NCBI GenBank assembly: GCA_011051655.1
Contig: DRKS01000091.1
Span: 1 to 64,000 of the forward strand
Direction: 5' to 3'
Source: Sedimenticola sp.
GTDB taxonomy: Bacteria > Pseudomonadota > Gammaproteobacteria > Chromatiales > Chromatiaceae
DNA length: 64,000 nucleotides
Of the stretch, positions 41,506 through 63,864 are shown one piece after another (position 1 is the stretch's first letter; each line of letters starts with the position of its first letter). The notes beneath the pieces were generated by a model that saw only the letters and a list, made by a program, of their open reading frames with translations, did not search any database and was not told the DNA's origin. A program made the position numbers and the translations under genes.

Positions 41506-43182
41506 TTATACCTGGAACTGCCCCACCAGGCCCCGCAGTTCCGTGGCCATTGCCGCCAGGTCTTGACTTACCTGTGCAGTTTGGGCAGCGCCCGTGGCCG
41601 TTTCGGCTGACATATTGTTGATCTTCACGATATTACGGTTTATCTCTTCTGATACGGCGCTCTGCTCTTCAGCTGCGCTGGATATCTGGATGCCCATTTG
41701 GCTGATTTTACTCACCGCCTCTGCAATCACCGTTAGCACCTCGCCGGACTTGGCGGCATAGTCCACTGCTGCTTTTGACTGCTCACGGCTCTGCTCCATC
41801 ACCGCCACAGCCCGGCATGAACCGTTCTGGAGCTTTCCGATTATATCGTTAATCTCTTCGGTGGACTGTTGGGTGCGGCCAGCCAGGGTACGCACTTCAT
41901 CTGCAACCACGGCGAAACCACGCCCTTGTTCGCCAGCCCGTGCTGCTTCAATGGCGGCGTTCAGGGCCAACAGGTTGGTCTGCTCCGCAATCCCCTTAAT
42001 GACGTCTAGCACGGCGCTGATCGCCTCGCATTGCTGGTCCACTTCATTGATGGTTTGTGCTGAGATTTCCAACTGTTCAGCCAATTCGTTGATTTGCTTG
42101 ATGGTCTGCTGCACAACCCGGGCGCCTTCGATGGTCTGCTCATTCGCCTCATTGGCTGAGGTGGATGTAAGCGTGATATTGGAGGCTACCTCCCGGACGG
42201 TAGCGGTCATCTCAGCCATGGCCGTAGCCACCTGTTCCGTTTCAGTGCGTTGTTCCTGGATTGTCTGGCTGGTCTGGCTGGTTACCACTGACATCTCTTC
42301 TGAAGCGGTAGACAATTGCGCTGTTGTATCGGAAATTTCAGATAGCATGCCAAGAAGTTTTTTGCGCATACCATTCATTGCGGTTAGCAGCTCACCGATC
42401 TCATCTTTGCTATCCACTTCGATAGGCTGAGTGAGATCACCTGATGCGGTTACCGTCGCCCTACGAATGGCATTCACAATCAGGTTGGCGGTGAACAGGC
42501 TTGTAACCATGCCAAGAATGATGCTTACAATAGCGATAACGGTGAGCACGGAAATGGTGGTTTTTTCATGGGCCTCGGCGCTTTGGGAACTGGCTTCGGT
42601 AAATTGCCCGACCTTGCGTAACAGAGATGCCACCTCCTTATTCAGCTGCTCCTCCTCATGTATCACTTTCTTTGCCAGCTGCTCAGCAGCATGGTTGTCT
42701 CCTTCTTCCAGCAGAGAAAATATAGTGTGGGCATGCTCTATATAGCTTTTATACTCCTCTCCAATTCCTTTTAATGCGTTGCTTGCTGACTTGAGTTCTT
42801 TAAGGGTATCCCCTTGAGCTCCTTCCATTGCCGCTTCAGCTATGATTTCTGCTTCAAGGATCTCGTCATTGATTTGTTTTATCCCTTCATCAAATGCCTT
42901 TAAGGCCTCACGAAAACGGGCAGCCGTATCATCTTGTTGTAAAATTCCCGCATAATGCAGGGCGCGTTCAAACTGGATAGCCTGTTCCAGTTGGTGCGTT
43001 GTAATTCCGCCAAGTTTTTCTGTAAGAGGGATATCATGTTCGGTAATGGTTGATAGCTCATGGCCTATCTGGTTCATGGAGTAAATAGCATAGCCGGAAC
43101 CCAGAATGAGCAGTGTGAGCAGGATGCCTGCATTACCCATTAACTTAGCCCTTACAGATAGATTTTTAAAAAATTTATTCAT
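41506..43182 (-). CDS. Methyl-accepting chemotaxis protein
   Basis: This 558-residue transducer has TM1 ([20 protein letters not shown]), a periplasmic helical-bundle sensor (about residues 38-190), TM2 ([19 protein letters not shown]), HAMP and a cytoplasmic signalling domain. The hairpin tip is conserved: [20 protein letters not shown] then [20 protein letters not shown]. The ATG at 43182 has AGGGG upstream. The promoter at 43452-43478 matches sigma-28, tying it to the flagellar regulon. The ligand is unknown. There is no C-terminal CheR-binding pentapeptide. Confidence 0.95.
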
Positions 43183-43451
43183 GCTTATCCCCTGATTACT
43201 CAAAAATGGTTATTAATTTCCTTCTTTCAGGAAGAAACCCTCGAAAAAGAAGTAATGCATGCTAATGGAGCATAAAACGGGGCGGGGGAAGGGCCAAACT
43301 ACATACCAGCTGGAGTAGCGCAATGCTTGAAGTGCGCTGATAAAACGGCACTGCGGGGCGATGGGCAATGCCGCTTATGTTGGCTCAATGATCCTGATAC
43401 AGCTACAACATACCTTTACCCGGCAGGTCAAGGGGCCATTTATTAAAGCCC
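43183..43451 (-). other. Long 5' leader of the chemoreceptor gene
   Basis: About 260 bases separate the sigma-28 -10 element from the ATG. I see no coding frame and no obvious riboswitch in it. The stretch nearest the gene is A/T-rich. Confidence 0.45.
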
Positions 43452-43478
43452 ATATCGGGCAAGGATAAATAAACTTTA
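43452..43478 (-). promoter_or_regulatory. Sigma-28 (FliA) promoter of the chemoreceptor gene
   Basis: Read on the minus strand: TAAAGTTT (perfect -35, 43478-43471), 11 bases, CCCGATAT (6 of 8 at -10). This is 14 of 16 positions of the FliA consensus with exact spacing, equal in quality to the fliC promoter. Confidence 0.8.
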
Positions 43479-43988: not shown

Positions 43989-44826
43989 TTATGTCGAACC
44001 CTCCGCGGCCAGTTCCCAGCAATGTGCGCGAGCTGATTCAAATAGTGTCGCTGCCTGTTCGTGCACTTTCAGGTGGAGCTGTCCGCCATGATGCACGATT
44101 TTGCCGGCGCTCTGATTATTGTTTGAATCTGGTGCCGGCGCCATTCCTTTTTCAAGGCCCATTGCCTGAGGCCCCCGAAGAGGTTGTAAGCCAGCACGCC
44201 TATGCGGAAGAACACGGCGCTGGCCTCGAACTGCCCACAAGGCATGCGTTTCATGCCAAAGCCGGTTTTTAACGCCTTGATGCGGTTTTTGCTGGTTTCA
44301 GCACGCTGACAATACCACGCCATGGTGGCCCGGGCGCTCTCCCGGCGGTTGCCGGCCACGACGGTATAACGGTAGCCGGCGGACTCTTCATTGAACAGGT
44401 CGCCCTGCCTGGGGCGGCGCAGTACAATCAGCCTGAAGGCCTTCTTTGTTTTGTTCATGCTGTGCACGGTTTCGCCAATCTCGCCATCCCGCCAGGGGCG
44501 CCATGCCGTAGCCGGGATTGCCTCAATAGTGGCTTTTACCGCCGCATCCAGGTCTCCTCCGATGGCAAAGACTTTGCCCGCGTCCTCGCAGTCATTGATG
44601 ATGTCGGCCTGACAGGCCGCGCTGTCAGGGCTCACGGGTTCAATGTGGTGAACAGGAGGCAACTGGGCTTTGCAACAGCGGATAAACGCCAGGTTACGTG
44701 CTGCCGGGGTGCCGATTCAATTGGTGCTTCAGGAAAACAAATTACCAATATTGCGCTTAAGCGTCCGGCAGATTTTCTCCCGCGTAGCCAGGGTCATATT
44801 CTGTGCGCTATTTTCCAGGTGGCTCA
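43989..44826 (-). pseudogene. IS1380-family transposase remnant
   Basis: Minus-strand frames carry IS1380 (DDE group 1) landmarks: DSAACQADIINDCEDAGKVF, ETVHSMNKTKKAFRLIVLRR, NRIKALKTGFGMKRMPCGQF and FFRIGVLAYNLFGGLRQWAL. Near 44110-44125 the frame changes and the C-terminus continues as SAGKIVHHGGQLHLKVHEQA. Upstream, LSHLENSAQNMTLATREKIC matches the N-terminal region, but about 200 residues between it and the core are missing. The gene is thus deleted internally and frameshifted. I found no clear terminal inverted repeats. Confidence 0.75.
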
Positions 44827-45444
44827 GGGTTAGTTACTTAATTGATGCAACCCTATTTACCCTGTTTTGATTGAGGTTTAATTGAAATTTTGTTTTAATG
44901 ACCGCCTCTGCTCGTTCAGCCCGGATCAGCTTGAACTTATGGATTTGGGAATTGCCTTCCTAAGTCCCAGTCAATGGGAAAAATGGATTTAAAGTTTTTG
45001 GTGCCATGCTCGATATATCTTAAGGCATGAGGCTTGCCCGTACCTCTTGGTGAAATGCTTCAAGGCCATATCAAGAGTATTTATCAGTTTGGGTGGCGCC
45101 CTTCCCCCGCGGCACCCGGCCAACAGGCATGTTGTAGTCGTCATATTACTGCAGTCGATGCTGTGAGATTCCGGCCTTCCCCCCGCCCAGTGTTGTGCCA
45201 TATGCACCCTTTAATAGTCACCGAGCCAGTCTTAAGACCCTTCCCCTGTCTTGACTCATCGCTTCAGATGCGGCCATGGATGACCCACTTAAACAGAATG
45301 CAAGGGCCATGATCGCAAAGAATAGATGAGGTGCTTGCTTACATCCAAGGAAGGCGACCATGATCTTGGATTGATGAAAACGGCGCAGAGCTAGTGACAT
45401 CAGAAGCATGAAAATAAATAACTAAATATAAGCGGGGAAAAGAA
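44827..45444. other. Gap upstream of the REC-ANTAR gene
   Basis: This 618-base stretch has no convincing gene. Its second half (45092-45353) is a divergent copy of the hpt leader described separately. The first 260 bases are A/T-richer and featureless to my reading. Confidence 0.45.
45092..45353 (+). repeat. Duplicated leader, copy A (upstream of the REC-ANTAR gene)
   Basis: Starting GGTGGCGCCCTTCCCCCGCG, this stretch aligns with 46138-46393 (copy B) with only a few small indels. In the first 58 aligned bases I count 49 identities. Similarity extends through the region matching the hpt ribosome binding site and about 40 bases of hpt coding sequence (shared CAAGGAAG at 45346 and 46386). Copy A therefore holds a decayed leader plus gene start. 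Confidence 0.7.
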
Positions 45445-46062
45445 ATGGCCCAAGCACGTTTGCTACTTGCTGATGACGATAGAATTATATTGACGACGTT
45501 TGGCGAGGGATTACGCAATGCCGGGTATGAGGTGATAGAAGTCGATTCCGGGGAAGCTGCGCTTAAGGTGGTGGCGGAGAAACAGGTTGATCTGGTGATT
45601 CTGGATGTCGATATGCCAGGTATTACAGGTATTGAAACGGCATATAAGATGAGAAGCTTGGGAGTTCCCGTGATCTTTCTTACGGCTTATGATAGTGAAA
45701 AGATGGTAGAGGCGGCGGTGGCAGAGGGAGCGCTTGGCTATATCATAAAGCCCATTGATGTTGCAAAGGTGATCCCGACCATTAAGACTGCATTGGAACG
45801 GGCCGGGGATCTGCAAGAGTTGAAAAAGGCTCAAGACAGGTTGAACGCCGCCCTGGATACTGGGAAGGTGGTAAATGTCGTGGTTGGCATGATCATGGAA
45901 CGTTACAGTATTAGTCAAGATGAGGCCTTTGAGCTCTTGCGTCAAAAAGCACGCTCGGAACGGCGTAAAGTGCGCGAGGTGGCTGCGGATATGGTCAATG
46001 CCTGGAAGGTGCTGAGCAGGCTTAATCCGGGTTGCTCTTCAGCGGGCAAGAAGAAGCGCTGA
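45445..46062 (+). CDS. Response regulator with REC and ANTAR RNA-binding domains
   Basis: The 205-residue protein has a receiver domain (1-120: LLLADDDRIIL acidic pair, VILDVDMPG phospho-Asp, FLTAYD, IIKPID with the Lys). An ANTAR domain follows (about 140-195: NVVVGMIMERYSISQDEAFE then LLRQKARSERRKVREVA). ANTAR regulators bind tandem RNA stem-loops and prevent termination when phosphorylated. The gene leads the phosphorelay cluster and is preceded by one copy of the duplicated leader, a candidate RNA target (inference). Confidence 0.93.
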   Translation: MAQARLLLADDDRIILTTFGEGLRNAGYEVIEVDSGEAALKVVAEKQVDLVILDVDMPGITGIETAYKMRSLGVPVIFLTAYDSEKMVEAAVAEGALGYIIKPIDVAKVIPTIKTALERAGDLQELKKAQDRLNAALDTGKVVNVVVGMIMERYSISQDEAFELLRQKARSERRKVREVAADMVNAWKVLSRLNPGCSSAGKKKR

Positions 46063-46137
46063 TCGCTGATCTGTGATACAAACGGGTTTTCGTCCAGCAA
46101 TGCCGGGGTGGGTGTTTCTGGGCGGTTACTGAGCCAT

Positions 46138-46393
46138 GGTGGCGCCCTTTCCCCGCGGCACCTGTCCAACACATGTTGTGATTGTCATGCCACTGTTATT
46201 GGTACTGTGGCTTCCGGCCGTTCCCCCGCCAGTGCCGTGCCACGCATGCCGTTTGCGGTCACGGAATTCGGCCTTGAGACCATTCCCCCGTCTTGATTTG
46301 TCATTTTGAATGTGGACGTGAATTCTTCACATACTAAGAATACAGGAGCCATTCTTATGAAGAATACAGGTGAGGCACACGGTTGCAAGGAAG
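46138..46393 (+). repeat. Duplicated leader, copy B (upstream of and into the Hpt gene)
   Basis: Homologous to 45092-45353. It spans the intergenic region, the hpt ribosome binding site (AGGAG at 46345) and the first codons. Possible stems: GGTG...CACC around 46138-46162 and GCCAC...GTGGC around 46189-46211. I see no T-tract terminator inside. Confidence 0.65.
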
Positions 46394-46836
46394 ATATTTA
46401 TGACATGGATGCGGCTGCTACAGATCAAGCAATCTCTACTGCAGATAATGGTGTTGCACCGATGGATATTCCTGTTGGAGAAGATGATTGTCAGTCGTTG
46501 ATAGATTTTGAAGTTGTCGGCCAGTTGAGGATGCGCATTGGGCAAGAAGGCGTGAATGAGCTGCTGGAGATGATGCTTGAGCATATCCCCCAGCACCTGG
46601 CCGGATTGCATGAGGCTGTGCAAAATGGTGACCGCAAGGCAATGTGCGCCATTTCCCATACCCTGAAATCCAGCAGCGGCACCCTGGGATTGACGGCCCT
46701 GTTTGACCAGTGCAAGGCTCTATCGGAAGTAAGCCACCAAATGCCCATTATTGAAGCGAAGTACAGAGTGGATACCATCGAAGATGTCTACAGGCGGACG
46801 GCGGCCTTCCTGCGGCAAAAGCACTTCGGAAAGTGA
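46357..46836 (+). CDS. Histidine phosphotransfer (Hpt) protein
   Basis: The 159-residue protein starts at the ATG preceded by AGGAG eight bases upstream. After a 50-residue variable segment it has an Hpt helical bundle with the phospho-His in AMCAISHTLKSSSGTLGLTA and the later helix FDQCKALSEVS. It can shuttle phosphate between the hybrid kinases encoded downstream and receiver outputs such as the REC-ANTAR or REC-GGDEF-EAL proteins. The next gene starts 15 bases after its stop. Confidence 0.9.
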   Translation: MKNTGEAHGCKEDIYDMDAAATDQAISTADNGVAPMDIPVGEDDCQSLIDFEVVGQLRMRIGQEGVNELLEMMLEHIPQHLAGLHEAVQNGDRKAMCAISHTLKSSSGTLGLTALFDQCKALSEVSHQMPIIEAKYRVDTIEDVYRRTAAFLRQKHFGK

Positions 46837-46851
46837 AAGGGGGAGACTAAA

Positions 46852-49029
46852 ATGAATACCATGCCACTTACGACTCCCGTGCCACTCGTCATGGTGGTAG
46901 ATGACGACCCCATTATCAGACGGCTGCTTACTCGGGAACTGGAGGCACGTGGTTTTGAAGTAAAGGAAGCCATCACGGGAGCGGATGCACTGGCGCAATT
47001 GGGACGGGATCCGGCAGACTTGGTTTTGCTTGATGTCTGTCTGCCGGAGATGGATGGCTTTGAAATATGCAGACGCCTGCGCGCCATGCCCGGGTTCCAC
47101 ATGCTGCCAATCTTGATGCTCACTGGCCTGGATGACATTGAATCCATAGAACAGGCGTTCGATGCTGGAGCTACCGATTTTATTACCAAACCGGTCAATC
47201 TGCCGCTGGTAAGTGAGCGGGTGCGCTATGCCCTTCGGGCGTACCGCATAGCGCAGGACCTGGCTTTCAGCCAGCAGCTGTTATCTCATGCTCATAAGCT
47301 TTTGAGGCTGGGACACTGGCAGCTCGATCCCGTTAATCAAACCATTGAGTTTTCTGCGGAGGCCAGAAAAATCATGTGTTTGCAGACCAAAAACAGATTC
47401 ATGCCATTGGATCGCCTGCTGAAACTGCTCCATCCAGTTAGCAAAACAAAGATGGAGCAGATGCTGATTCAATTGAAGAAAGGGAGACGTTCCATCAGCA
47501 TGGATTTATGCCTTCGGCCCGGACGTGTCCGGGAGCGTCATGTGCGAGTGCATGCGGAGCTCATGGGAAAATGCGTGGAAACAGCACCAGATCTCGTGCT
47601 TGGCACCATTCTCGATATCACGGAGGATAAACGCAAAGAGGCCCTGATACAACACCAGGCCCTGCATGATGAATTGACCGCCCTCCCCAACCGGCGCATG
47701 TTTAAGGAGCACCTGCTTCAAGCCATTACGATTGCTGAATACAAGGGACAGTTGCTAGGGCTGCTGTTTATTAATCTCGACCGTTTTAAGGTTGTTAACG
47801 AAACATTTGGGCATGCCCTTGGCGATGATTTATTGAAGATGGTTGCGGACCGCCTGCTTACTTGCGTGGGTTCCAGTGACACCGTAGCCCGCCTCAATGG
47901 GGACGAGTTCACCGTCCTTCTGCAGAATGTTCAGAGACGCAAGGATATCTCCCTGATCGCGGGTGCCATAGTGGAAATTCTCTCGGAGAGTTATATCCTG
48001 GGTGGCCAAGAGATTGTTATAAGTCCCAGTGTCGGCATTTCTCTCTATCCACAAGACGGGGCTGAACTCGACAGCTTGATGCGCAATGCCGATATGGCAA
48101 TGAACCAGGCCAAGGAAAGTGGTGGAGGACGCTATAATTTCTGCAACGCCCAGTTGAATGCTGAAACCAGTGCACGGCTGAGTATGGAGACAGCTTTACG
48201 CCGAGCGCTGGAGCAGGATGAACTGACAATTTATTATCAGCCGCAGATAGATCTGCATAGCATGTCGGTAGTGGGTGTGGAGGCATTGGCCCGGTGGCGA
48301 AGTGATGAGCTGGGCGATGTTCCTCCTTCCAGCTTCATTCCGATAGCGGAAGAGTCTGGACTTATCCATCCCCTTGGCGAATGGGTGCTGCATACCGCCT
48401 GTACCACGGTGGCGGGCTGGCATACCCGGGGACTTGACTCACTACGGGTGGCGGTCAATATATCACCCATTCAATTTCGTCGGGACTGCTTGATCAAACG
48501 GATTGAGAACGCTTTGTCGACAACTACTCTGGAGGCGCAGTATCTGGTGATTGAGATTACTGAAAGCCTGGCCATGGAAGACGTGAAGCGTAGCGAAAGG
48601 GTTCTTGGCCTTTTGCGCGAACAAGGGATGCGGATCGCTATTGACGATTTTGCCACGGGGCATTCTTCGTTGCGTTACCTGCAACGTTTCCCAGCCGATG
48701 AACTGAAGATTGACCGGGAATTCATCCGCTGGCTTGGATCAAGCCCTACTGATACGGCCATTGTACAGACAGTAATCTCCCTGGGGCACAACCTGGGGCT
48801 GGAGGTGCTGGCTGAAGGGGTGGAAACAAGAGAGCAGTGTGTCTTCTTAAAGGAACATGGTTGTGATTTGGTGCAGGGATATCTTTTCTCCAAGCCGGTG
48901 AATGCCGATGATCTTTTCAATATATTGGTGTGTCCGGATTCATTGATATTATCCTGTCTGGATCGAGGAAGTGCAGCAGGTGAAGATAGTATCTGCGTTA
49001 AGGCAACGGGCAATCATATTACAGCCTGA
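46852..49029 (+). CDS. REC-GGDEF-EAL cyclic-di-GMP signalling protein
   Basis: The 725-residue protein has a receiver (about 10-125: MVVDDDPIIRRLL, LVLLDVCLPEMDG, ITKPVN), a PAS-like middle (150-260), a GGDEF domain (265-430) and an EAL domain (445-690). The cyclase motif reads ARLNGDEFTVLL, so the first Gly is Asn and synthesis may be lost. EAL residues look complete: GVEALARW, VAVNISPIQF, IEITES, IDDFATGHSSL, KIDREF and AEGVET. A phosphodiesterase controlled by phosphorylation is the likeliest role. Confidence 0.93.
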   Translation: MNTMPLTTPVPLVMVVDDDPIIRRLLTRELEARGFEVKEAITGADALAQLGRDPADLVLLDVCLPEMDGFEICRRLRAMPGFHMLPILMLTGLDDIESIEQAFDAGATDFITKPVNLPLVSERVRYALRAYRIAQDLAFSQQLLSHAHKLLRLGHWQLDPVNQTIEFSAEARKIMCLQTKNRFMPLDRLLKLLHPVSKTKMEQMLIQLKKGRRSISMDLCLRPGRVRERHVRVHAELMGKCVETAPDLVLGTILDITEDKRKEALIQHQALHDELTALPNRRMFKEHLLQAITIAEYKGQLLGLLFINLDRFKVVNETFGHALGDDLLKMVADRLLTCVGSSDTVARLNGDEFTVLLQNVQRRKDISLIAGAIVEILSESYILGGQEIVISPSVGISLYPQDGAELDSLMRNADMAMNQAKESGGGRYNFCNAQLNAETSARLSMETALRRALEQDELTIYYQPQIDLHSMSVVGVEALARWRSDELGDVPPSSFIPIAEESGLIHPLGEWVLHTACTTVAGWHTRGLDSLRVAVNISPIQFRRDCLIKRIENALSTTTLEAQYLVIEITESLAMEDVKRSERVLGLLREQGMRIAIDDFATGHSSLRYLQRFPADELKIDREFIRWLGSSPTDTAIVQTVISLGHNLGLEVLAEGVETREQCVFLKEHGCDLVQGYLFSKPVNADDLFNILVCPDSLILSCLDRGSAAGEDSICVKATGNHITA

Positions 49030-49092: not shown

Positions 49093-50943
49093 ATGAGCAG
49101 AACAGCCGCAACAGCAGCTGGGGAATCAGCGCATGCAAGAATCCAGCGCGAACAGGCAAAGTCGCTCGCAGCGGGCGGGTTGCCGTCCAATATCGCCATA
49201 ATCGGCAGCAGCCTCTTGATCGTTATTGCCTTATGGCATACCGCTAATCAGATCTCCTTGCTGCTTTGGCTTACAGGCATGTCGAGCATGGCATTGGTCC
49301 GTTTGCTTCTCATAAGACACTATTACCATATTGAAGAAAGGGAGCCGGGCCATGGAATCTGGGTGCAAAATTATTTTATAGCAACTGCGCTTGTAAGCCT
49401 TGGGTGGTGTGCGCTTCCATGGTTGCCGCAGATATTTTCAACAATATTTTCACAAGCAATCATCGTGTTTGTGACGGCAGGCGTGTGTTTTATGGGTGCT
49501 GCGGTTTTGTCTGTTCATAGGCTGGCCCAGTTCAGCTATATAATCCCTCTCCCTTTTTCTGTTTCATTGCGGTTCTTGACTTACCAGCAGGAGGCGGCGA
49601 CTGTCATTGGGATCATGGTGTTGTTTTTTGGGGGGGTTATGTATTGGATAGGAGAAAGGCAACATCAAGTATTGCTGGAGAATATTAAGCTCCAGTTTTA
49701 TAACGAGCAACTGGTTGCCGATATGAAAGAGGCGAAGGATATCGCTGAAGCAGCCAGTCGCGCCAAGAGTGAATTCCTCGCCAATATGAGCCATGAGATC
49801 CGTACTCCCATGAATGCGGTCATCGGCATGGGGCATCTACTTCAGAAAACGGCCCTTACGGAAGAGCAGCAGGAGTATCTTGCCAAGCTCAAAACTTCCT
49901 CCAAAAACCTGCTCAGGGTTATCAACGACATTCTGGATTTCTCCAAGATTGAAGCCGGAAAGCTGGAAATGGAGTCGGCTGAATTCAACCTGGATATGGT
50001 ATTGTCGGATGTCGCCAATCTGGTGGGTGCTTCAGCACGGGAAAAAGGGCTCGAACTACAGCTTGCTGCTTCTGATGATATTCCCCTCATGCTTGTGGGA
50101 GATGATCTTCGGCTGAGCCAAGTGTTGACAAACCTTGCTGATAACGCCGTGAAGTTCACCGAGCGGGGTAAAGTGACAATAACAGCCAAACTGCTGGAGC
50201 GGGGAAATAGCGATGTCCGGCTTCAGTTCGAGGTTAAGGATACGGGCATGGGGATAGGGATGGAGCGGCAGGAGGAGCTGTTTCAACCTTTTACCCAGGT
50301 GGATGCATCTCATAGCAGACACCATGCTGGCACGGGGCTTGGTTTAACTATCAGCAGGCAGCTTGTGGAGATGATGGGTGGAAAAATGTGGCTGGAAAGC
50401 GAAATAGGCAAAGGCAGTACATTTTTCTTTACTGCGCACTTTGGCTGGGGGATGCAGGCTCCGGTGATACGCAAGATGAATTCTGTTGTCCCGGCCAATG
50501 AGCCGCCGACACTGCCGAAAGCTGCTCATGTGCTGCTTGCCGAAGATGACAGGCTTAACCAAGTGGTTGCTGAAAAGATACTGGGGTCATACGGAATCCA
50601 GGTCACTATTGCGGAAGACGGCCTGGCCGCCGTTCAAATGGTAAAGGCCAGGCTTTTTGATGTGGTGCTGATGGATATTCAGATGCCCAATCTAGATGGT
50701 TACCAGGCAACCAAGGAGATCCGAAAGGATCCCCGGTTCAGAGAGTTGCCCATCATTGCCATGACTGCTCACGCTATGGCTGGTGAGTTGGAGAAGTGCC
50801 TGGAGGCGGGCATGAATGATCACTTTGCAAAGCCATTCGAGCCCGAAGATCTGCATCGCCTTATACTCAGGTGGTTACCATCCTGGAAGGGCGGTTACAC
50901 TGAGCTTGAGAGTGGTCATGGGATTGGCGTAGAGCAAGCATAG
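49093..50943 (+). CDS. Membrane hybrid sensor histidine kinase
   Basis: The 616-residue protein has an N-terminal membrane domain (residues 30-190, about six hydrophobic segments). HisKA follows with phospho-His in [20 protein letters not shown] (near 231), then HATPase ([14 protein letters not shown] box; [21 protein letters not shown] boxes). A C-terminal receiver has [11 protein letters not shown] and [13 protein letters not shown], with AKPFEP. It lacks its own Hpt, so it probably uses the nearby Hpt protein. It is closely related to the next kinase. Confidence 0.93.
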
Positions 50944-50949
50944 CACCTG

Positions 50950-53661
50950 ATGAATCAACACAAAAGTAAAATTTTGATTGTTGATAATAGTGCCTATATT
51001 AAGGAGCTCGTCAATCTGCTAAAGGCTGAATATCACACCGTGGTTGCAGAGAATGGAAAGCAAGCACTGAAAAATATCAGGCTCGATACACCACCTGACC
51101 TGATTCTTTTGGATGTCATGATTCCTGGCATGGGTAGCTACGAGTTCTGCCGCCGGCTAAAGAAGGATTCTGCAACCCGTAATATCCCGATTATCCTCAT
51201 GGCCGCCAAGAGTGAAGCGCACAACGTGATTGAAGGCCTGGAATCGGGCGCCGTGGATTGTATTGATAAACCGATAAGTCCGCCGCTTGTCAGGGCCAGG
51301 CTGCGGACTCATCTGGCGCTTAACAGGGCGCGCCAAGAGCTGCTGCAGGCGCATCATGATCTTGAAAGGCAGGCTGAGGAAAGAATTCATGCGCTTTCCG
51401 TGGATGAAAGCCGACTGAGCATCATTTATCACTCAAACCCCGATTGCATCAGGATTATAGATTCAGATGGAATAATTCTTGATATAAATCCTGCTGGGCT
51501 TGCCATGCTTGGAGCGAGTTCCATCGATGAAATCAAGGGGCGGTGTGTCTATGATTTTATTGAGGCCAAGCAGAGAGATGAGTTCATCAAGATGAACAAC
51601 ATGGTTTTTGCTGGTGCTTCAACCTCAATGGAATTCAGGACCCTGACGTTGAGGGGCGATTATATATGGGTGGAGTCCAACTCTGTACCGTTATTTGACG
51701 GGCAAGGCAATGTAACGGAGTGCCTGTCCATAACCCGCAGCATTGCCGAGCGCAAGAAAACCGAGGAGGAGCTGAGAAAGCTTTCTATTGCTGTCGAGCA
51801 AAGCCCGGCTAGTATTGTCATTACTGACAAAAGCGGCAATATCGAATACGTAAACCCACAGTTTGAGCGCGTAACCGGATATGCCAAACATGAGGTCATT
51901 GGCCGAAATCCAAGGATTCTCAAATCTGGACGTATGCCGCAGGATACCTATGTCGACCTATGGAAAACCATTACCAGGGGGGAAATCTGGTCTGGAGAGC
52001 TTCAAAACAGAAATAAAAACGGAGAAATCTATTGGGAGTTTGCGTCAATTTGTCCCATCAAGAACGATGCAGGCGAGGTCACTCACTTCATTGCCGTCAA
52101 AGAAAATATCAGCTTGCTCAAGTTGCGCGAGGAGGAATTGCGTGCCGCCAAGGAGATTGCTGAAACCGCCAATCAGGCCAAGAGCGAATTTCTCGCCAAT
52201 ATGAGCCATGAGATCCGTACTCCCATGAATGCGGTAATCGGCATGGGGCATCTGCTCCGTAATACACGGCTTACAGATGAGCAGCAGGAGTATCTGACGG
52301 CACTCCAGTCTTCCTCCAGGAATTTGCTTGGTATCATAAACGATATTCTGGACTTCTCCAAGATCGAGGCTGGAAAAATGGAGATAAAACCAAGCGAATT
52401 CCGCCTGCACGATGTTTTGCAGGATGTTTATAGCCTGATAGGTCCCTTGGCCAAAGAAAAGGCGCTTGAGCTGCGTTTTTGCATTCCGGAATCGATCCCT
52501 GGCGCCTTGGTAGGCGATCCGTTGCGGCTGGAGCAAGTGCTGATAAACTTGACCGGCAATGCGGTGAAGTTTACCGACCAGGGAGAGATCGTTGTGATTG
52601 CTGAGATCCTGGAGCAGGAGGCCACTCGAATGCGGCTTTGCTTTACCGTCAAGGATACTGGCATAGGCATAGAGCCTGGACAGCAGCAAAGGTTGTTTCA
52701 GCCTTTTACCCAGGCGGACAGCTCTCACACCCGCCGGCATGGTGGTACGGGACTGGGGTTGACCATCAGCCGTCAACTGGTGGAGATGATGGGTGGAAAA
52801 ATCTGGGTTGATAGTGAGCCAGGCAAGGGGAGCGCCTTCTTCTTCACGGTGCAGTTCGGCTTGGTTCGGGATGCCCGTTGGACAGAACTGTTGTCGTACA
52901 AGGCTCCTCACATCAAGCCTTCGCCGCAATTTAGAGGCGTTCAGGTGTTGCTGGTGGAAGATGACAGGCTCAATCAGATTGTGGCCCAAAGGTTGCTTGA
53001 GTCCTATGGCGTGCAGGTCGCCATTGCGGAAAATGGATTGGATGCCTTGGAGGCGGTTAAGCGCCAATCCTTCGACCTTGTGCTGATGGATATCCAGATG
53101 CCGGAACTGGATGGTTATCAGGCTACGGCGGAAATCCGCAAAGAAGAGCGGTTCAGAGCTCTGCCCATTATAGCCATGACTGCCCATGCCATGGCGGGAG
53201 AGCGGGAGAAATGCCTGGCTGCCGGCATGAATGATCATTTCACCAAGCCTTTTGATCCGGGAGAGCTAAAACGTCTGCTTGTTAAATGGATACCATCGGG
53301 GAGCCTGCAGCAAAGTTCCTGCTCCGAGATTCAGGCAAACCTGGAAAGATTTGTGGAACACATGGGTGAGAAGCCAGCTTTGGCTCCATTGGATGCCGTG
53401 CTTGATCTGGTCCCTGAGAGGCTAGCTGGACTTCGAAACGCGCTGATGAAAAATGACTGGGAGGCGGCAAAAGAGCAGGCCCATCTTTTGAGAGGGTCCC
53501 TGAACATATATGGTTCTGAAGGGCTTGCGAGGCTGCTCGGTGACATTGAAGATGGAGCCGGTTTGGCTTCCGAGGTCGATGATATCGTCCAGAAGCTGGA
53601 AAAAGAGTTTGGCTTGGCGTTAAGATTGGTTCGGAAGATGCGGAAAAAATTAGGCCGCTGA
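50950..53661 (+). CDS. Hybrid histidine kinase REC-PAS-PAS-HisKA-HATPase-REC-Hpt
   Basis: The 903-residue soluble protein starts 6 bases after the previous stop. Order: receiver (5-125; [11 protein letters not shown] keeps one Asp of the usual pair, [11 protein letters not shown]); PAS (150-275); PAS (280-405, [20 protein letters not shown]); HisKA ([20 protein letters not shown]); HATPase ([20 protein letters not shown]); receiver ([24 protein letters not shown]); C-terminal Hpt with His in [15 protein letters not shown]. It contains every step of a phosphorelay. The HisKA part is nearly identical to the neighbouring kinase. Confidence 0.93.
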
Positions 53662-63705: not shown

Positions 63706-63864
63706 AAATTCCGGCCTCTTGTCGAACAGCGGTATTGTCCGGCATGAAAGGGGGTGAAATCCATTGTAGGCATTAAAGTTTTCAATGCCATGCCCGCTAT
63801 TGCATACAACGGCGGCCCCCCGGTTCGTGGCCATGAGCGCCGGAGAATTGCAGGAGTAGAGTAT

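Follow-up and report, generated by a model that had tools for sequence, protein, structure and literature searches.

The same folded leader stands before at least three genes of one signalling cluster in Sedimenticola sp. and is probably not a chance repeat but an RNA switch that has yet to be described. From the sequences of the window, i.e., the whole 64,000-nt stretch of contig DRKS01000091.1 that was analyzed, and of related genomes, we conclude with high confidence that these leaders form a real RNA family, apparently undescribed and private to a single signalling locus. As a candidate cis-regulatory family, it appears to tie a phosphorelay to a chemoreceptor and to a response regulator that binds RNA, in Sedimenticola-like gammaproteobacteria.

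Leader Copies and Their Genes

Two covariance models (CMs) were used to describe the leaders: R1, built from copies A and B of the window, and R2, which models the core that the copies share. The third leader, before the chemoreceptor gene, is absent from the R1 training set and present in that of R2. The main features of the locus are as follows.

41506-43182, minus strand: methyl-accepting chemotaxis protein (MCP) gene (Pfam PF00015), ATG start, Shine-Dalgarno (SD) sequence CAGGGGATAAGC
43280-43374, minus strand: third leader element, before the MCP gene (R1 23.8 bits, E 2.6e-5)
45090-45262, plus strand: leader element copy A, before the REC-ANTAR gene (R1 205 bits as a training sequence, R2 65.6 bits)
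45263-45353, plus strand: decayed copy of the hpt 5' end, a duplication scar (0/1000 shuffles; clearer in G226 and G228)
45445-46062, plus strand: REC-ANTAR response regulator, 205 aa (Pfam PF00072 and PF03861, above curated cut-offs)
46136-46304, plus strand: leader element copy B, before hpt (R1 193.5 bits as a training sequence, R2 44.2 bits)
46357-46836, plus strand: hpt phosphotransfer gene (Pfam PF01627), ATG start, SD AGGAG
46852-49029, plus strand: REC-GGDEF-EAL response regulator (Pfam), G-rich ribosome-binding site (RBS) AAAGGGGGAGAC
49093-53661, plus strand: two hybrid histidine kinases (49093-50943 and 50950-53661; Pfam)

An earlier sequence-only reading had described two collinear stretches as homologous leaders of an ANTAR regulator gene and an Hpt gene, and both the gene assignments, by Pfam, and the homology are borne out. 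Copies A (45092-45254) and B (46138-46296) share 74% identity over about 160 nt (blastn within the own genome, E ~2e-17), and the 3.1 Mb of that genome hold no further copy that blastn detects at the DNA level. Beyond the leaders, the alignment of 45255-45360 with 46297-46420 reaches a score of 38, whereas 1000 shuffles average 17 and none is as high, so that a weak collinearity of A and B runs on across the hpt start. The same reading had seen a decayed hpt 5' end in copy A and concluded that the arrangement arose by duplication. While this remnant is short in the window, it is clear at the same position, between the place of leader A and the ANTAR gene, in the related genomes G226 and G228 (51-114 nt, 82-83% identity, E 1e-10 to 4e-30), and since it is obvious in these two relatives, the proposed duplication history is right. 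The third copy, on the minus strand at 43374-43280, had been overlooked; it is more diverged than A and B, spans about 95 nt, and ends about 100 nt upstream of the MCP gene. A transposase-like ORF fragment (44069-44662, minus strand) lies between the MCP and ANTAR units and may be linked to the inverted orientation of the MCP gene, which is seen here but not in relatives.

Hairpins and Pyrimidine Loops

Each intact copy folds into two or three hairpins whose 9-10 nt loops are made of pyrimidines (CNUUYCCCC, 96% C/U) and which are spaced 50-75 nt apart. Over 13 leaders, C or U accounts for 95.7% of the loop bases and CCC occurs in 29 of 32 loops; the loops hold 206 C and 4 G among 301 nt, most of them with four or more C. 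H1 and H2 are present in all intact copies, and H3 is found in leaders of the ANTAR/hpt type. With loops in parentheses, the consensus of copies A and B is GGTGGCGC(CCTTYCCCC)GCGGCACC for H1, GGC(CNTYCCCCC)GCC for H2, and TTRAGAC(CNTTCCCCY)GTCTTGA for H3, and the individual hairpins are as follows.

45092-45116, plus strand: copy A H1, GGTGGCGC(CCTTCCCCC)GCGGCACC, with one G.G mismatch (minimum free energy (MFE) fold; covariation)
45173-45187, plus strand: copy A H2, GGC(CTTCCCCCC)GCC (pairs conserved, little variation)
45232-45254, plus strand: copy A H3, TTAAGAC(CCTTCCCCT)GTCTTGA (94.6% of cells paired, one double change)
46138-46162, plus strand: copy B H1, GGTGGCGC(CCTTTCCCC)GCGGCACC (MFE fold; covariation)
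46216-46230, plus strand: copy B H2, GGC(CGTTCCCCC)GCC (same covariation analysis as for copy A H2)
46274-46296, plus strand: copy B H3, TTGAGAC(CATTCCCCC)GTCTTGA (MFE fold; covariation analysis)
within 43280-43374, minus strand: MCP leader H1, GCGGCATTGC(CCATCGCCCC)GCAGTGCCGT
within 43280-43374, minus strand: MCP leader Hx, AGCGCA/TGCGCT, and H2, GGC(CCTTCCCCC)GCC; no H3

Two extra hairpins, Hx (e.g., GGCACA/TGTGCC) and Hy (e.g., CTATAG(CTGACA)CTGTAG), lie between H1 and H2 and stand out best in MCP-type leaders and in the relatives. In the interval from H2 to the MCP RBS (43260-43220, minus strand), a U/A-rich hairpin (e.g., CTTTTTCAG/CTGAAAAAG) keeps its position in the MCP leaders of the window, G226, G228, and G033.

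The covariation of these stems indicates that the leader structure is under selection. In 10 leaders, the structure composed of H1, Hx, and Hy has 88.8% of its cells paired, against 80.7% in shuffled and 20-51% in slid alignments, with a covariation score of 0.340 against 0.207 (0/500 shuffles). Pairs changed on both sides number 11 where 5.1 are expected, counts that come from related sequences in alignments that were fitted to the structure or inspected with it in view. The set of 12 leaders has 95.9% of cells paired (0/500). The signal sits in H1 and Hx, and no pair of Hy is altered on both sides; with just three pairs and little variation, H2 is supported by its conserved loop and GGC/GCC arms. 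In G033, the H1 stem is wholly rebuilt (GGAGATGC/GCATCTCC) around an unchanged loop. The sequence-only reading had proposed covariance folding with homologues from related genomes as a check; a conserved paired structure is present, with covarying stems in H1 and Hx.

G-U cells (26) outnumber C-A cells (10), which implies that folding takes place on the gene-sense strand, and an antisense reading with CsrA-like GGA loops was rejected on this comparison. A coding leader peptide was likewise discarded, since the inter-hairpin stretches of the copies show indels of 1-2 nt.

Promoters

The FliA/sigma-28 promoter pattern consists of TAAAGTTT followed 10-12 nt downstream by a near-consensus GCCGATA. 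A scan demanding a perfect -35 box and at most two mismatches in the -10 box returned three sites in the window, where 0.035 are found in dinucleotide shuffles.

43451-43478, minus strand: sigma-28-type promoter of the chemoreceptor gene, TAAAGTTT-N11-CCCGATA (consensus scan)
44990-45017, plus strand: sigma-28 (FliA)-type promoter upstream of leader A, TAAAGTTT-N11-CTCGATA (consensus scan)
63774-63801, plus strand: sigma-28-type promoter directly before a MotA-like gene (L052 3755-4633), TAAAGTTT-N11-CCCGCTA

The promoter before the MotA-like gene is followed by no leader element, and directly upstream of copy B in the window no sigma-28-type site was found. Most copies in G226, G228, and G033 are likewise preceded by such sites, and H1 starts about 45-75 nt from the -10 box in most copies. 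Because sigma-28-type sites stand upstream of most copies, the elements are most likely transcribed as the 5' leaders of transcripts in the motility class. In the MCP leaders, the initial ~20 nt are GGCTTTAACAAATGG, which resembles a boxA antitermination sequence (L134 80-100, L047 10107-10127, and window 43451-43430, minus strand).

Distribution Among Relatives

A DNA-level search of 55 relatives returned no copy outside the own genome; hence, the covariance models were used. In G033, R1 matches the hpt leader with a score of 67 bits; within the family, it finds strong copies in G226 and G228. With lax filters and 28 genomes, R2 returns 14 full or partial copies, three in the genome of the window, two in G033, four in G226, and five in G228; 10 of the 14 were R2 training sequences, so that their R2 scores are not independent. 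All 14 lie within orthologous REC-ANTAR/Hpt/kinase/chemoreceptor loci of four Sedimenticola-like genomes, the named counterparts being metagenome-assembled genomes, and the genes downstream are REC-ANTAR, hpt, MCP, and one decayed reading frame. Under strict filters, R2 gives no match beyond these four genomes among 210 family and order genomes and a class sample of 369 genomes. The same repeat at many unrelated sites had been named as an outcome that would speak against the sequence-only reading; the copies are confined to REC-ANTAR loci. The R1 matches in L023, L041, and L046 (ExoI-like coding sequence) and in L042 lie within ORFs at orthologous sites and were judged false.

Decayed copies occur in G226 (C96:933) and in a fifth genome, G224, which retains only a remnant on C43 with a broken H1 after asd, at a place where G228 has a leader and an ANTAR gene. 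The hpt gene on contig C96 of G226 (L047 2342-2810) contains an in-frame TAA (GVD*LLEIL) and looks broken; G226 also carries another ANTAR locus, on C18, which includes an MCP leader of its own.

Candidate Readers of the Loops

We infer that the leaders are cis-regulatory sites, whose recognition surface consists of the C-rich H1 and H2 (and H3) loops. Among the candidate readers, the ANTAR protein is placed first and RNA-RNA pairing second. The locus's own atypical REC-ANTAR protein is, tentatively, the most likely reader, a choice made from its linkage to the leaders. In the proposed mechanism, the hybrid kinases and Hpt of the locus would phosphorylate REC-ANTAR, which would then bind the hairpin pairs of its own mRNA and of the hpt and chemoreceptor mRNAs and thereby control translation or elongation; REC-ANTAR would in this way regulate itself, and the sensory module would be tuned as well. 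Among the scanned proteins of the locus, Pfam finds no RNA-binding domain other than ANTAR, and relatives of the protein with at least 68% identity occur in exactly the four genomes that have intact leaders. The congeners G223 and G224 have neither a close ANTAR relative nor an intact leader, and they keep their MCP genes, so chemotaxis was not simply lost. However, since every copy lies physically close to the ANTAR gene, within the same locus, their co-occurrence and co-loss may need no functional tie.

The canonical ANTAR target is a dual hexaloop with A1 and G4 (PMC3369931, PMC8934654). Classical antitermination, with such loops overlapping an intrinsic terminator, might be expected from a locus that encodes a REC-ANTAR protein and several of whose leaders have a hexaloop in Hy; it is contradicted by the leader sequences and appears very improbable. 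The Hy loops lack A1/G4, and 12 leaders contain five A1/G4 hexaloops where shuffles give 4.1, so that such hexaloops, a search for which the sequence-only reading had proposed, occur at chance level; the conserved loops are the C-rich ones of 9-10 nt. No U-tract terminator was seen in the leaders or their folds, which were read by eye rather than with a terminator program; together with the hexaloop scan, this agrees with the reservation already voiced in that reading, namely that no U-tract terminator and no clear hexaloop pair of the known type could be seen in either copy. Its leader-RNA idea stands insofar as the elements are structured, covarying, duplicated, and found only in the REC-ANTAR locus, but the canonical read-through is not supported, given the absent hexaloop and terminator signals and the loss of most EutV contacts. 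Known ANTAR target RNAs (the eutP/eutG/eutS/eutA, nasF, and amiE leaders) are likewise paired leader hairpins upstream of REC-ANTAR-linked genes, and the eut targets also occur in several copies across one locus. In contrast to them, the present leaders carry C-rich rather than A1/G4 loops and no visible overlapping terminator, their hairpins stand 50-75 nt apart, and their candidate reader is without most EutV contacts.

The window REC-ANTAR is similar to EutV (6wsh/6ww6) over residues 4-181. RNA-contact residues of EutV include R142, K147, K149, E160, and M172 (PMC8934654), which are G, V, V, Q, and R, respectively, in this ANTAR group, while K143 and an aromatic at Y164 are kept in the window protein. 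The group has VVG at the RNA face where the EutV type has AKG; such a loss of contacts is compatible with an altered RNA specificity as well as with the absence of any. A fuller proposal, that this VVG-for-AKG subgroup defines a new class of ANTAR target by reading paired C-rich loops of 9-10 nt in sigma-28-transcribed leaders, with its own gene, the phosphotransfer protein, and the chemoreceptor under control, is possible but less likely than not. If the ANTAR protein does read the leaders, the accepted target rule of A1/G4 hexaloops plus terminator would be too narrow.

It is also possible, though rather unlikely, that the C-rich loops have no protein reader and base-pair with G-rich RBSs (UUCCCC:GGGGAA), in cis or in other transcripts of the locus, holding translation down; in a variant, the leader could be cut into a small RNA. 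The precedent is sX13 of Xanthomonas, whose three stems with apical C-rich loops match the architecture seen here and which represses mRNAs with G-rich motifs near the starts of motility and signalling genes (PMC3771888); its targets belong to motility, chemotaxis, and signalling. GGGG is present in the RBS of four of five MCP and two of three ANTAR genes against a background of 20%, and the response regulator behind hpt has a G-rich RBS in three of three cases, but none of the four hpt RBSs contains GGGG. Leader-RBS duplex energies of the 12 leader genes differ from those of 89 background genes only at p = 0.06, and G-rich RBSs are common, so that weak pairing comes cheaply. While sX13 is a stand-alone trans-acting sRNA, the present elements are multi-copy 5' leaders behind sigma-28-type promoters, and an Rfam 15 search of the leaders gave no relevant match and none of the sX13 type. 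Similarly, in Helicobacter pylori the mRNA of the chemoreceptor gene tlpB contains a G-rich stretch and is regulated by the C/U-rich loop of RepG (HPnc5490; as cited in PMC3771888). In that system, a trans sRNA provides the C-rich loop and the chemoreceptor leader the G-tract, whereas here the chemoreceptor leader itself bears the C-rich loops. Should the loops act by pairing, they would represent a cis, multi-copy form of a C-rich-loop mechanism known from trans sRNAs.

Maintenance of the stems makes two further explanations less likely. Rho-dependent attenuation, in which the pyrimidine loops would load Rho, is improbable: the loops are C-rich and G-poor, the leaders are long, and no U-tract terminator is evident, but Rho sites are normally unstructured, whereas here compensatory changes preserve the stems and the C tracts are divided among separate short loops. 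Slightly less improbable, yet still unlikely, is the notion that the leaders are passive relics, i.e., promoter-leader segments copied with gene duplications in a fast-evolving locus and devoid of a regulatory role. The arrival of copy A with a duplicated hpt 5' end, the local position of all copies, and the decay of some are in keeping with it; covariation and loop retention across three genera, as well as retention before the unrelated genes hpt, ANTAR, and MCP, argue against it.

More distant ANTAR relatives were also encountered. Endosymbionts of tubeworms (Lamellibrachia and Escarpia; L058-L062) have a REC-ANTAR protein of 58-60% identity behind a PAS-GGDEF gene and without the leader, which speaks against the ANTAR protein as the reader. 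Upstream of a 51% identical ANTAR relative in G003, there is a lone hairpin, AGGC(CTTTCCCCC)GCCT (L010 1088-1072, minus strand), which scores a sub-threshold 9.9 bits.
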